Assembly (NCBI GenBank): GCA_946479015.1
Contig: CAMLEQ010000094.1
Location: 1 to 11,074 of the forward strand
DNA from: an uncultured Gemmatimonadota bacterium
Lineage (GTDB): Bacteria; Gemmatimonadota; Gemmatimonadetes; Gemmatimonadales; Gemmatimonadaceae
Reading direction: 5' to 3'
DNA length: 11,074 nt
The notes under the pieces are model-generated. The model made no database searches and was not told the DNA's origin. It saw nothing but the letters and a program-made list of their open reading frames with translations. Each line of letters starts with the position of its first letter. Position 1 is the stretch's first letter. A program made the translations under genes and the position numbers. Below, piece by piece: positions 3,798 through 10,479 of the stretch.

Positions 3798-3827
3798 TTG
3801 ACATCGTCGCCGGCACGTGAGTAGACT
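3798..3827 (+). promoter_or_regulatory. Sigma70-type promoter of the metZ leader
   Basis: A perfect -35 hexamer TTGACA (3798-3803) and a 4/6 match to the -10 hexamer, TAGACT (3822-3827), are separated by 18 nt. Transcription would begin near 3834, about 10 nt before the first base of the SAM-II aptamer. That placement supports the call independently of the hexamer match. Confidence 0.65.
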
Positions 3828-3843
3828 GCGGCCACAATCGATG

Positions 3844-3896
3844 TCGTGGTGATTTGCCGCCTATTGCAGCCACGTTAAACAAGTGCTAAAACGCGA
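3844..3896 (+). ncRNA. SAM-II (SAM-alpha) riboswitch aptamer
   Basis: This S-adenosylmethionine-sensing RNA lies in the metZ leader. The conserved SAM-II string is present in order: GATTTG (3851-3856), TTGCA (3864-3868), GCCACGTTAAA (3869-3879), and GCTAAA (3885-3890). Stem P1 is CGTGGT (3845-3850) with GCCACG (3869-3874): five Watson-Crick pairs plus a U-G wobble. The H-type pseudoknot expected for this class can form between loop 1 and the 3' segment: CGC (3858-3860) with GCG (3893-3895), and GCA (3866-3868) with TGC (3884-3886). SAM-II (Rfam RF00521) is best known upstream of methionine genes in Alphaproteobacteria and represses when SAM is abundant. Promoter upstream, terminator downstream and a methionine gene as target all agree. 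Confidence 0.92.
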
Positions 3897-3899
3897 CCC

Positions 3900-3933
3900 T
3901 GCCCGGCGGCATCCTCGCCGGGCATTTCGTTTT
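3900..3933 (+). terminator. Intrinsic terminator acting as riboswitch expression platform
   Basis: A 9-bp perfect stem: TGCCCGGCG (3900-3908) pairs with CGCCGGGCA (3916-3924) around a 7-nt loop. It is followed by TTTCGTTTT (3925-3933). It begins 4 nt after the aptamer and ends 45 nt before the metZ ATG, so it can only act on the metZ leader. This is the classic arrangement for a transcription attenuator that stops synthesis when SAM is bound. The T-tract is interrupted by CG, so termination may be incomplete. Confidence 0.85.
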
Positions 3934-3978
3934 CCGATCGCCGTGGCGGCACCGACCTCTTTCTCTCGAGGCTGCGCC

Positions 3979-5217
3979 ATGAGCCGGTCGCCCGACACGC
4001 CGTCCCCATTCGATTCCTCCACGCTGCACCCCGAGACGCTCGCGGTGCGCGCGCAGGCCCCCCGCACCGGGGAGCGCGAGCACTCCGTGCCGCTCTTCCT
4101 CACGTCGAGCTTCGTCTTCGAGAGCGCCGAGCAGGCGCGGGCGATGTTCGCCGACGAGATCCCGGGGAGCATCTACAGCCGCTACTCCAACCCGAACGTG
4201 GACGAGCTGGTGCGGAAGCTCTGCCTGCTCGAGGGCGCGGAGGAGGGGATCGCCACCGCGAGCGGGATGGCGGCGGTGTTCGCCACGCTCGCCGCGCTCC
4301 TCCAGCAGGGCGATCACGTGCTCGCCTCGCGCGCGCTCTTCGGCTCCACGCACCAGCTCCTCACGCGCGTGCTGCCGAAGTGGGGGATCACATCCACGTA
4401 CGCCGACAGCGACGCGACGATCGAGGATTGGGAGCGCCTCGTGCGCCCGGAGACGAAGCTCGTGTTCGTGGAGACGCCGTCGAATCCCGGGCTCGACCTG
4501 ATCGACCTGGAGGCGCTCGGCGCGCTCTGCCGCCGGCGCGGGCTCACGTTCGTGGTGGACAACTGCTTCACCACCCCGTGGCTGCAGCAGCCGATCCGCT
4601 TCGGCGCGCACGTGGTGGTGCACTCGGCCACGAAGTTCATCGACGGGCAGGGGCGCACGCTCGGCGGCGCGGTGGTGGGCTCCGCCGACCGGATCGCCGA
4701 CATCCGCTGGTTCGCCCGGCACACCGGCCCCGCGCTCTCGCCCTTCAACGCCTGGGTGCTCTCGAAGAGCCTGGAGACGCTCCCCGTGCGCATGGAGCGG
4801 CACTGCGCGAGCGCGCTCGCGGTGGCGCGGCACTTCGAGGGGCACCCCGAGGTGGAATCGGTGCGCTATCCCTTCCTGGAGAGCCACCCGCAGCACGAGC
4901 TGGCGCGGCGGCAGATGTCGGCGGGGGGCGGGATCGTGGTGCTCGTGGTGCGCGGCGGGCTCGCGCGCGCGCGCCGCTTCCTCGACTCGCTCGATCTGCT
5001 CTCGCACTCGGCGAACCTCGGCGACACGCGCACCATCGTGACCCATCCCACGTCCACCACGCACTCCAAGCTGAGCGAGGAGGAGCGCCAGCGCGTCGGG
5101 ATCGTGCCGGGGCTGATCCGCATCTCCGTGGGACTCGAGCATCCGTCGGACATCATCGCGGATCTGGAGCGCGCGCTGGCGCGGTCGGCCGCCCCGGTGA
5201 CGGCCGCCGCGTCCTGA
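3979..5217 (+). CDS. metZ: O-succinylhomoserine sulfhydrylase (PLP-dependent)
   Basis: A 412-residue cytosolic enzyme of the Cys/Met-metabolism PLP family. It condenses O-succinylhomoserine with sulfide to homocysteine, the direct-sulfhydrylation route to methionine. Visible residues are the phosphate-contacting YSRYSNP (66-72), the Ser-Gly pair in TASGMAAV (93-100), the cofactor-ring aspartate in VVDNC (192-196, Asp194), and the Schiff-base lysine Lys219 in HSATKFIDGQGR. The latter string and TLPVR, GDTRT and HPTSTTH resemble MetZ more than MetY or cystathionine gamma-synthase. An O-acetylhomoserine substrate is not excluded. The ATG at 3979 has GAGG 7 nt upstream and gives the family's normal N-terminus. 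A longer in-frame start at 3883 lies inside the riboswitch and terminator and is rejected. It is controlled by the SAM-II riboswitch upstream. Confidence 0.93.
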   Translation: MSRSPDTPSPFDSSTLHPETLAVRAQAPRTGEREHSVPLFLTSSFVFESAEQARAMFADEIPGSIYSRYSNPNVDELVRKLCLLEGAEEGIATASGMAAVFATLAALLQQGDHVLASRALFGSTHQLLTRVLPKWGITSTYADSDATIEDWERLVRPETKLVFVETPSNPGLDLIDLEALGALCRRRGLTFVVDNCFTTPWLQQPIRFGAHVVVHSATKFIDGQGRTLGGAVVGSADRIADIRWFARHTGPALSPFNAWVLSKSLETLPVRMERHCASALAVARHFEGHPEVESVRYPFLESHPQHELARRQMSAGGGIVVLVVRGGLARARRFLDSLDLLSHSANLGDTRTIVTHPTSTTHSKLSEEERQRVGIVPGLIRISVGLEHPSDIIADLERALARSAAPVTAAAS

Positions 5218-8566: not shown

Positions 8567-8650
<84 letters not shown>

Positions 8651-8797: not shown

Positions 8798-10345
8798 TCA
8801 CCCACCCACGCGCAGGTTCACCACGCGCGTCTGTTTCAGGTCGGTGTTGTACACGAGCAGGCTCACCACGTCGCCGTCGTGCAGGTGCGACACGACCTGG
8901 TCGAGGTCGGCCGGCGCGCGGAGCTGCCGCTGCGGGGAGGGGCTCAGCACCTTCACCAGCACGTCGCTCCCCGCGACGAGCTTCTGGTACGCCGGTCCGT
9001 CGGCCTGCACGTCGGTGACCGCCACGCCGCGCTGCGTCTCCGGAATCTGGGCCCGGCTCGCGCGGTCCACGCTCACCGTCTCCACCGAGATCCCGAGCTT
9101 GTCGTAGCTCGCGGGACGGCCGCCGCTGTCCTCACCGCCGGCGTCGTTGCTCGCCACCTGCTCCTCCCCCGGCGCCTCGGCGAGCTTCACCTTGAAGTCC
9201 ATCTTCTTGCCGTAGCGCATCACGGTCACGTCCACCGTCTGCCCCGGCTTGTGGCTGCGGATCAGCCGCTGGAGCTGCGCCACGCGATCGATGTCCTTGC
9301 CGTCGAGCGAGATGATGACGTCGCCCGGCTGGATCCCCGCCTTCGCCGCGGGGCTGTCGCCGCCCGGGCTCGCGCCGCCGACGAGCGCGCCGCGGATCTC
9401 CTTCATCCCCGCCGCCTGCGCGTCCTCGGCCTTCACGTCCTGGATCGACACGCCGAGGATCGGGCGCCGCACGCGACCGTACTGGATCAGGTCGTTCATG
9501 ACGGTCTTCGCGAGCGTGATCGGGATGGCGAAGCCGTAGCCGGAGTAGTAGCCCGTGGCGCTGGCGATCGCGCTGTTGATCCCGATCACCTCGCCGCGCG
9601 TGTTCACCAGCGGGCCGCCGGAGTTGCCGGGATTGATCGCCGCATCCGTCTGGATGTAGTCCACGATCGCGTACTGGCTCGCGTAGAGGCCGCGGAGCTG
9701 CCCGCTGCGCCCCTTCGCGCTGATGATCCCCGCCGTCACCGTGAAGTCGAGGCCGAGCGGATTCCCCACCGCCAGCACCCACTCGCCCACGCGCGACTGC
9801 GTGTCGTCGCCCAGCGACACGGTGGGGAAATCGGAGCCGTCGATCTTGATCACCGCGACGTCGGTGGTGGGATCGCGTCCGATGACCTTCGCGGTGAAGG
9901 TGCGCTTGTCGAGCATCGTCACCGTCACCTTGTCGGCGTCCGCCACCACGTGGTTGTTGGTGAGGATGTAGCCGTCGGGGGAGACGATGAATCCCGAGCC
10001 GCTCCCCTCCATGGGCGGGGTGCGATTGGGCTCGAACTGCCGGAAGAAGTCCTCGAGCCCCGGCGGCACGTTCTGCTCGCCGCGCGGACGCCGGATCTCG
10101 CGAGGGCCGCGCTCCGTCTGGATGGAGACGACCGCCGGCGTGACGTGCTCGGAGATGGAGACGAAGCTGTTGCTGAGATCGGCGACCGGCTGAACGGCCT
10201 GGGCCGGCGGCTTCCCCCCCTGGCCACGCTGCTGCGCATAGCCGAAGGGAGTGAGGCTCAGCCCCGAGGCGATCACCAGACCGCCCGCGAACGCGACCAC
10301 GGCAACGACACCGAGTCGCACGTGCGAGAGAGCTCGAGACGTCAT
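8798..10345 (-). CDS. Periplasmic serine protease/chaperone, DegP/HtrA family, two PDZ domains
   Basis: A 515-residue Do-type protease that degrades or holds misfolded proteins in the cell envelope. An N-terminal signal or anchor helix lies at about 10-30 (RLGVVAVVAFAGGLVIASGL). The trypsin-like domain covers about 60-290, with catalytic His132 (TNNHVV), Asp162 (TTDVAV) and Ser242 (INPGNSGGP), all intact. PDZ1 is at about 293-390 (PILGVSIQDV, then IQPGDVIISLDGKDI). PDZ2 is at about 415-512 and more diverged (KLGISVETV, GSDVLVKV). A Gly/Glu/Asp linker separates the PDZs. The domain order and length are those of full-size DegP/DegQ. The ATG at 10345 is chosen because it directly precedes the signal sequence. 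A 30-codon upstream extension looks like non-coding leader. No clear Shine-Dalgarno is seen. It lies 265 nt downstream of dnaK on the same strand. Confidence 0.95.
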   Translation of the reverse strand: MTSRALSHVRLGVVAVVAFAGGLVIASGLSLTPFGYAQQRGQGGKPPAQAVQPVADLSNSFVSISEHVTPAVVSIQTERGPREIRRPRGEQNVPPGLEDFFRQFEPNRTPPMEGSGSGFIVSPDGYILTNNHVVADADKVTVTMLDKRTFTAKVIGRDPTTDVAVIKIDGSDFPTVSLGDDTQSRVGEWVLAVGNPLGLDFTVTAGIISAKGRSGQLRGLYASQYAIVDYIQTDAAINPGNSGGPLVNTRGEVIGINSAIASATGYYSGYGFAIPITLAKTVMNDLIQYGRVRRPILGVSIQDVKAEDAQAAGMKEIRGALVGGASPGGDSPAAKAGIQPGDVIISLDGKDIDRVAQLQRLIRSHKPGQTVDVTVMRYGKKMDFKVKLAEAPGEEQVASNDAGGEDSGGRPASYDKLGISVETVSVDRASRAQIPETQRGVAVTDVQADGPAYQKLVAGSDVLVKVLSPSPQRQLRAPADLDQVVSHLHDGDVVSLLVYNTDLKQTRVVNLRVGG

Positions 10346-10479
10346 GGAAGAATTCCGCTCGTGTCTAGAGAACAATGAAACTGTACACTGATGGGCAGGC
10401 AAGGTGCCTCGCGCCATCGGCGCGCAACGGCGCACCGGACACGGACATGGCCCACGATGAAACAGTCACGCCCCGCGCC

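Follow-up and report, generated by a model that had tools for sequence, protein, structure and literature searches.

The window analysed here, a stretch of 11,074 nucleotides from an uncultured Gemmatimonadaceae bacterium, carries a metZ-family gene whose leader contains a likely promoter, a small pseudoknotted aptamer and, directly 3' of the aptamer, an intrinsic terminator that is absent from the preliminary description of this DNA (Table 1). The TTGACA/TAGACT pair, which we take to be a promoter from its likeness to the sigma-70 consensus, ends 17 bases 5' of P1. Naming the downstream gene metZ, as had been done from the sequence, is appropriate at the level of the family: its best NCBIfam models are NF006003 (519.8 bits, cut-off 522) and TIGR01325 (492.2 bits, cut-off 510.05), and it falls just below both curated cut-offs. 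Scanning the window against 4227 Rfam families with cmscan placed the SAM-II model RF00521 over the leader at 39.1 bits (gathering score 36, E 4.6e-6); apart from this, only a tRNA at 8567-8649 on the minus strand reached its cut-off in the scan.

Table 1. Features of the metZ leader and its surroundings in the window.
Feature	Coordinates	Strand	Basis
Likely sigma-70 promoter: TTGACA 3798-3803, 18-nt spacer, TAGACT 3822-3827	3798..3827	+	by eye
SAM-II aptamer	Rfam extent 3836..3906; core by sequence 3845-3898	+	cmscan; R1 match at 3839-3898
P1 hairpin, 6 bp: CGUGGU 3845-3850 / GCCACG 3869-3874	3845..3874	+	Rfam alignment
Loop strand UGCCGCC	3855..3861	+	5' side of both the outer pseudoknot helix and the putative antiterminator
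Linker, 10 nt, UUAAACAAGU, without a stem	3875-3884	+	read from sequence
Pseudoknot P2 3' strand: GCUAAA 3885-3890 and tail ACGCG 3891-3895	3885..3895	+	Rfam alignment; outer-helix covariation in relatives
Intrinsic terminator: stem of 10 bp (3900-3909/3915-3924) with loop 3910-3914, followed by TTTCGTTTT	3900..3933	+	fold, -19.9 kcal/mol
GGCGGCA in terminator 5' arm, complementary to 3855-3861: putative antiterminator partner	3905..3911	+	transcript folds; covariation test
Second GGCGGC copy 3945-3950 in predicted hairpin with Shine-Dalgarno GAGG 3968-3971 and AUG 3979	3945..3982	+	fold
metZ-family gene (O-succinylhomoserine sulfhydrylase), 412 aa	3979..5217	+	best NCBIfam families

The host had been placed in Gemmatimonadota, and two protein markers support this. 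Among the best 80 MetZ loci, the six from Gemmatimonadota encode proteins 69-79% identical to that of the window and the other 74 proteins 61-67% identical; inside the family of genome G005 the identity is 63 to 79%. The second marker, a DegP-like protease encoded at 8798-10435 on the minus strand, is 53-59% identical to its counterparts in G171, G182, G004, G005 and G002 and 52% identical to that of G003; G001 and G006 give partial matches, at 55% and 43% respectively, and the non-Gemmatimonadota genomes G007, G012, G010 and G011 give 42-44%.

To assess the aptamer independently of Rfam, we used a covariance model, R1, built from 39 diverse Gemmatimonadota elements with the window and all metZ/Y and metX members left out. 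The window scored 70.8 bits with R1 (E 1.7e-16 over 73,835 bases); matches were obtained in 7 of the 12 sources searched, among them Gemmatirosa kalamazoonensis (locus L291; 72.1 bits), the MetZ relative L262 (69.4) and the metZ leader of Sinorhizobium meliloti (60.1). Together with the Rfam score, which clears its cut-off by only 3 bits, this places the element in the SAM-II class, as had been proposed on the strength of 3844-3896, the aptamer core; chance is excluded. In the Rfam and R1 alignments the conserved blocks GAUUU (3851-3855), UUGC (3864-3867), UUAAACAA (3875-3882) and GCUAAA (3885-3890) are present, and P1 and both pseudoknot helices are found as described, the outer helix being only 3 bp long (CGC 3858-3860 with GCG 3893-3895). 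An outer helix of about 5 bp, a common, non-defining feature of the class, is thus lacking in the window; PMC6061858 gives it as 5 bp in 60% of SAM-II and as 2 bp in metX SAM-II. What defines membership is the score over the cut-off, P1 and the pseudoknot P2 with covariation, the core and linker blocks and the position in a methionine-gene leader, all of which are found here. S-adenosylmethionine is very likely the ligand of the switch. SAM-II elements usually follow a near-consensus promoter with a start site a few nucleotides 5' of P1, according to Corbino 2005 (PMC1273637).

Pairing across the 39 relatives supports the SAM-II structure. Paired cells amounted to 94.6% (88.7 in shuffles) and the covariation measure to 0.179 (0.087 in shuffles), and none of 500 shuffles was as high on any of five pairing and covariation measures. 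When partners were slid, paired cells dropped to 24.7-33.8%. Two-sided changes occurred in 4 of 12 pairs, a number likewise reached with partners slid by -1. P1 cells were 100% paired, with two-sided changes in two of the six P1 pairs, in one sequence each. For the outer pseudoknot helix, at least 3 bp (G-U counted) could be formed in 67 of 77 distinct loop/tail combinations; 2000 swaps gave a mean of 55.2 and a maximum of 63. PMC2258182 predicted that in SAM-II the end of the P1 loop pairs with the linker; the corresponding columns 36/53 (last P1-loop base and linker) hold GC in 18, AU in 12, CG in three and GU in two of the 39 sequences and are unpaired in four.

For comparison of whole leaders, 177 elements were parsed (176 loci and the window). 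Four (L139, L140, L169 and L239) were dropped as having no core and a further 16 loci were excluded as belonging to the phylum of G007; the remaining 157 elements comprise 156 Gemmatimonadota loci and the window. Best-scoring matches listed supplied 147 of these and a separate search nine, the last being the window, and low scorers are under-represented accordingly. L145 has no clear loop, and it was left out of alignment A1 together with L161 and L228, the parsed ends of all three looking wrong.

Most probably, the window element is a SAM-II riboswitch that turns metZ off by premature transcription termination. The aptamer identity, the conserved core, the terminator, two mutually exclusive pairings and their covariation in relatives were all computed; from these we infer that SAM binds, which way the switch works and that it acts in the cell. 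At low SAM, the loop strand UGCCGCC would pair with GGCGGCA as soon as the latter is transcribed; this antiterminator would tie up the terminator's 5' arm, letting RNA polymerase continue into metZ. At high SAM, the pseudoknot between the loop strand and the GCUAAA tail would be locked, the loop strand would be unavailable, and the terminator stem (3900-3924) would form and stop transcription ahead of metZ. A terminator of equivalent design was recognised by eye in L262, L269 and L291.

Folding energies, calculated with pseudoknots and ligand left out, are consistent with such a switch. The loop strand forms a duplex of -15.5 kcal/mol with the terminator arm and of -4.3 kcal/mol with the tail in the absence of ligand; with so little from the loop/tail duplex, the terminator would prevail in time only if SAM kept the pseudoknot together. 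In folds of the growing transcript, the P1 hairpin is present up to 3892. Once GGCGGC (3905-3910) has been made, the antiterminator is the minimum at each step examined from 3910 to 3934; at 3926 it reaches -33.5 kcal/mol, against approximately -29.3 summed from the parts for P1 (-9.4) plus the terminator (-19.9).

In the longer transcript ending at 3985, the lowest-energy fold contains the terminator and pairs the loop strand with the second GGCGGC copy at 3945, in a duplex that at -15.2 kcal/mol is nearly equal to the first. This raises the alternative of a two-step switch, whereby the loop strand serves first as antiterminator and then moves to the second copy, opening the hairpin that holds the Shine-Dalgarno sequence and start codon, so that SAM would shut both transcription and translation. 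The isolated segment 3935-3985 does fold at -19.7 kcal/mol with GAGG and AUG paired, and in nine of the 157 related leaders a GAGTGCC-type stretch at the start codon is complementary to a preceding GGCGGCACTCA. These nine (L084, L085, L206, L210, L229, L232, L242, L250 and L259) are metX/metY-type leaders, and the GGCGGC of their GGCGGCACTCA is complementary to the aptamer loop strand. However, the closest relative, L262, has no second copy, the GGCACTCA motif is absent from the other 148 leaders (some of which end early at contig ends), and leaders this rich in G+C fold by chance. We regard the two-step switch as unlikely, and the folds hint at best weakly at a function for the 3945-3982 hairpin.

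Translational control without termination is a very unlikely account of the window element, whose Shine-Dalgarno sequence lies some 70 bases 3' of the aptamer with the strong terminator in between; a terminator-like hairpin is likewise present in 146 of the 157 related leaders. Precedent for such control may nevertheless exist within the phylum, since in six metH leaders (L096, L097, L100, L103, L105 and L147) the start codon comes only a few bases after the aptamer, and no terminator was picked up by a simple detector; these six are likely to be of the translational type. A different ligand, or decay to a relic, as the short outer helix and low Rfam score of the window element might suggest, is scarcely credible given the SAM-II core blocks, the intact terminator, the likely promoter, the methionine gene downstream and the same design in both L262 and Gemmatirosa kalamazoonensis.

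Termination through the loop strand, the preferred reading, predicts complementarity between loop strand and terminator arm in other leaders. We examined 46 distinct non-metH leaders with a terminator, counting G-U pairs and leaving out the window; metH leaders L156, L182 and L212 were excluded from this set, and including these and the window gave a like result. At least 5 bp could be formed in 42 of the 46, against a mean of 14.4 (maximum 24) for arm shuffles and of 32.7 (maximum 38) for swaps between leaders, with none of 500 swaps reaching 42. At least 6 bp were found in 30 of the 46 (swap mean 15.3, maximum 23, none of 500 as high). Since swaps already give 32.7 of 46, part of the complementarity is common to related leaders. 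Across all 147 distinct loop/terminator pairs, with Watson-Crick pairs only, 69 reached at least 5 bp (300 swaps: mean 39.7, maximum 52).

The same rule failed for metH leaders, of which 44 of 85 reached at least 5 bp, under the swap mean of 46.3. In these leaders the GCUAAA strand plus five bases fits the terminator arm or loop, with at least 6 bp in 38 of 84; arm shuffles gave a mean of 3.6 and a maximum of 11, and swaps a mean of 29.3 and a maximum of 37, none of 500 reaching 38. Conversely, a GCUAAA-strand antiterminator was rejected for the non-metH leaders (3 of 46; swap mean 3.8). There seem to be two antiterminator designs, each using one strand of the same pseudoknot.

Among close relatives, the expectation that the element would be conserved holds in part. 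A MetZ match at E<=1e-120 was found in 26 of 118 genomes of the G005 family, with the leader visible in 25. The closest of these, L262 (MetZ 79% identical), keeps both the element and its pairings; SAM-II lies in the retrieved flank of only one other, L269, and the remaining 23 of the 25 orthologues have no element within theirs. The gene order metX-hom-metZ occurs in five of the 25, neither L262 nor L269 being among them. Of the six Gemmatimonadota loci in the MetZ comparison above, L004 alone has SAM-II, and L072 is cut at its start. Outside the 25-locus tally, L084 (G006) has SAM-II before a metZ/metY-type gene. A metZ leader with SAM-II is thus a minority arrangement that is conserved where present. 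In L262 and L263 a RimK-like gene lies near metZ.

The preliminary description had raised the question of how far the class has spread or been transferred. Wide spread is evident: in 395 Gemmatimonadota genomes (sampled from the phylum of G002), RF00521 was matched in 262 at E<=0.001 and in 221 over the cut-off, and this phylum-wide count rules out stray horizontal transfer into one genome. Corresponding figures were 17 and 8 of 296 in the phylum of G007 (Kapaibacterium), 3 and 0 of 198 in that of G010 (Spirochaetia), and 0 of 14 named control genomes. R1 at E<=0.001 matched 302 of the 395 against 10 of 148 comparison genomes, the gain consisting partly of short forms. Five of the retrieved elements (L182, L213, L214, L222 and L230) lie on contigs of 3.0 to 5.5 Mb, for which binning error is no explanation, and the named species Gemmatirosa kalamazoonensis carries SAM-II on a 1.1-Mb plasmid. 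In the phylum of G007, L126 and L141 (G638:C1:136915-137102) are tandem SAM-II-like elements approximately 40 nt apart, scoring 43.5 and 33.5 bits.

Previous accounts placed SAM-II in Proteobacteria and Bacteroidetes (Barrick and Breaker 2007, PMC2258182); Corbino 2005 (PMC1273637) names the Bacteroides group and, among Proteobacteria, the alpha class with a few others; within Proteobacteria, Leyn 2014 (PMC4239095) lists SAM_alpha in Rhizobiales and Rhodobacterales, where metY is the core target, joined by hom, metA, metX, metC and metW. A search of open-licence literature, mainly titles and the beginnings of abstracts and with Rfam's hit lists outside its scope, returned no description of SAM-II in Gemmatimonadota, and the available portions of PMC12452182, PMC10469786, PMC9331176, PMC4055693 and PMC5317091 contain none for this phylum. 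SAM-I (RF00162) exceeded its cut-off in 61 of the 395 genomes, and 20 carried both SAM-I and SAM-II at E<=0.001; among the matches listed, both classes were over the cut-off in 13 of those 20 (G054, G058, G066, G068, G072, G084, G161, G175, G213, G222, G271, G303 and G356). In 2007, no species with both had been found, as far as the accessible text of PMC2258182 goes.

The genes downstream of the 157 elements clustered as metH (106), metX/metZ-metY/hom (23), thrC (11), panB (8), RimK-like (3) and unassigned (6), each named from one representative per cluster; the longest-frame rule applied may misassign in G+C-rich DNA. The thrC cases (L142, L143, L178, L189, L201, L203, L225, L235, L240, L245 and L248) concern threonine synthase, on the other branch of homoserine use. 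An unexpected target is panB, encoding 3-methyl-2-oxobutanoate hydroxymethyltransferase, which follows a SAM-II element with terminator in L091, L099, L111, L114, L118, L144, L148 and L257, in two of the eight behind an aminotransferase gene. A RimK-like ATP-grasp gene, under the curated RimK cut-off, follows SAM-II in L089, L090 and L246. Neither thrC, panB nor the RimK-like gene is among the SAM-II targets named in the available parts of the literature examined. Gemmatimonadota thus add a further phylum with wide use of SAM-II, some genomes with both classes, and three candidate new targets.

In 23 metH-leader elements of relatives, P1 is shortened and the linker altered, and three of them have an extra hairpin. 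Ten (L294-L303), taken from weak R1 matches in SAM-I-carrying genomes, have a P1 of 3-4 bp and a linker of approximately 6-10 nt without UUAAACAA, the longer version being that of L294 and L295, and a common core of GAUUUG(A/U)GGCRUAUUGCGGCC and GCUAAAAAGCCA. RF00521 scored at most 22.8 bits (E 0.35) on these ten. A model built from them, R2, gave matches in 13 of another 21 genomes, with E<=2.5e-14 in ten (L304-L313) and weaker scores in three (L314-L316, E 2.9e-6 to 2.1e-4); the 21 were chosen partly for weak R1 matches, and 13 of 21 is therefore no measure of prevalence. The 20 metH leaders L294-L313 have the core GAUUUG...UUGCGGCC...GCUAAAAAGCCA. In 22 of the 23 short-form loci the motif DGAMGTM, which we take to mark metH, lies downstream. 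The ten training sequences covary little, with two-sided changes at a single pair, and the case for a short form is accordingly carried by conservation, position and core. Contig C1 of G029 and contig C1 of G070 each carry a SAM-I match together with a short form, so that the two coexist in one genome.

L314-L316, also upstream of metH, have an insert of 31-41 nt between P1 and GCUAAA, before AACGA-GCUAAAA. The inserts fold as hairpins, two of the three clearly so (shuffles as low: 5, 4 and 72 of 500). This gives the three the layout of SAM-V, for which PMC6061858 describes a 4-bp P1, a P3 hairpin and adenines ahead of P2. Rfam's own SAM-V model, RF01826, gave no match at E<=10 in L294-L303 or L314-L316, and no Rfam model reached its cut-off in these 13 of the 23 loci.

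It is quite possible, though we advance it tentatively, that the SAM-II fold has a major home in Gemmatimonadota, in which metH leaders form a graded series, running from ordinary SAM-II (6-bp P1, 10-11-nt linker with UUAAACAA) through the shortened form to the linker-hairpin form with SAM-V layout, and in which the loop strand serves as antiterminator before metZ, metX, thrC and panB and the GCUAAA strand before many metH genes. If so, SAM-II and SAM-V would be one evolving family with intermediates before orthologous genes. The short metH forms are a more novel lead than the window element; spread, targets and possible intermediates towards SAM-V together offer material on how a small pseudoknot class spread and changed shape.

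Of the known systems, SAM-I has the ligand and target pathway in common with the window element; its fold is an unrelated four-way junction, and the Rfam scan found none in the window at cut-off. SAM-V shares the pseudoknot with SAM-II and a SAM-binding core described as nearly superimposable (PMC6061858). Unlike SAM-V, with its 4-bp P1, extra P3 stem-loop in the linker and action on translation, the window element combines a 6-bp P1 with a terminator and lacks P3, and RF01826 is absent among its matches at cut-off. Among the closest is the element on plasmid 1 of Gemmatirosa kalamazoonensis KBS708 (L291, NZ_CP007129.1; RF00521 38.1 bits), 88.4% identical over 40% of the query, in which the design of aptamer and terminator is nearly that of the window. 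It precedes, by inspection of an unannotated record, a putative metX-like frame followed by PLP sulfhydrylase-like and aspartokinase-like frames, rather than metZ.

The preliminary description had considered metZ informative as a target; metZ is already known for SAM-II in S. meliloti (PMC9373788; L292, CP090106.1), so that the window element adds a further SAM-II switch at an established target. In both leaders the same aptamer class stands ahead of the same gene family (annotated in S. meliloti as O-succinylhomoserine sulfhydrylase), a terminator adjoins the aptamer and the loop strand is, by inspection in S. meliloti, complementary to the arm of that terminator. The two differ in phylum and in RF00521 score (85.2 bits in S. 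meliloti against 39.1), and by inspection the S. meliloti loop and outer helix are longer. For the S. meliloti element, PMC9373788 predicts termination on SAM binding and reports an sRNA of fitting size on Northern blots that is more abundant in high-SAM medium.
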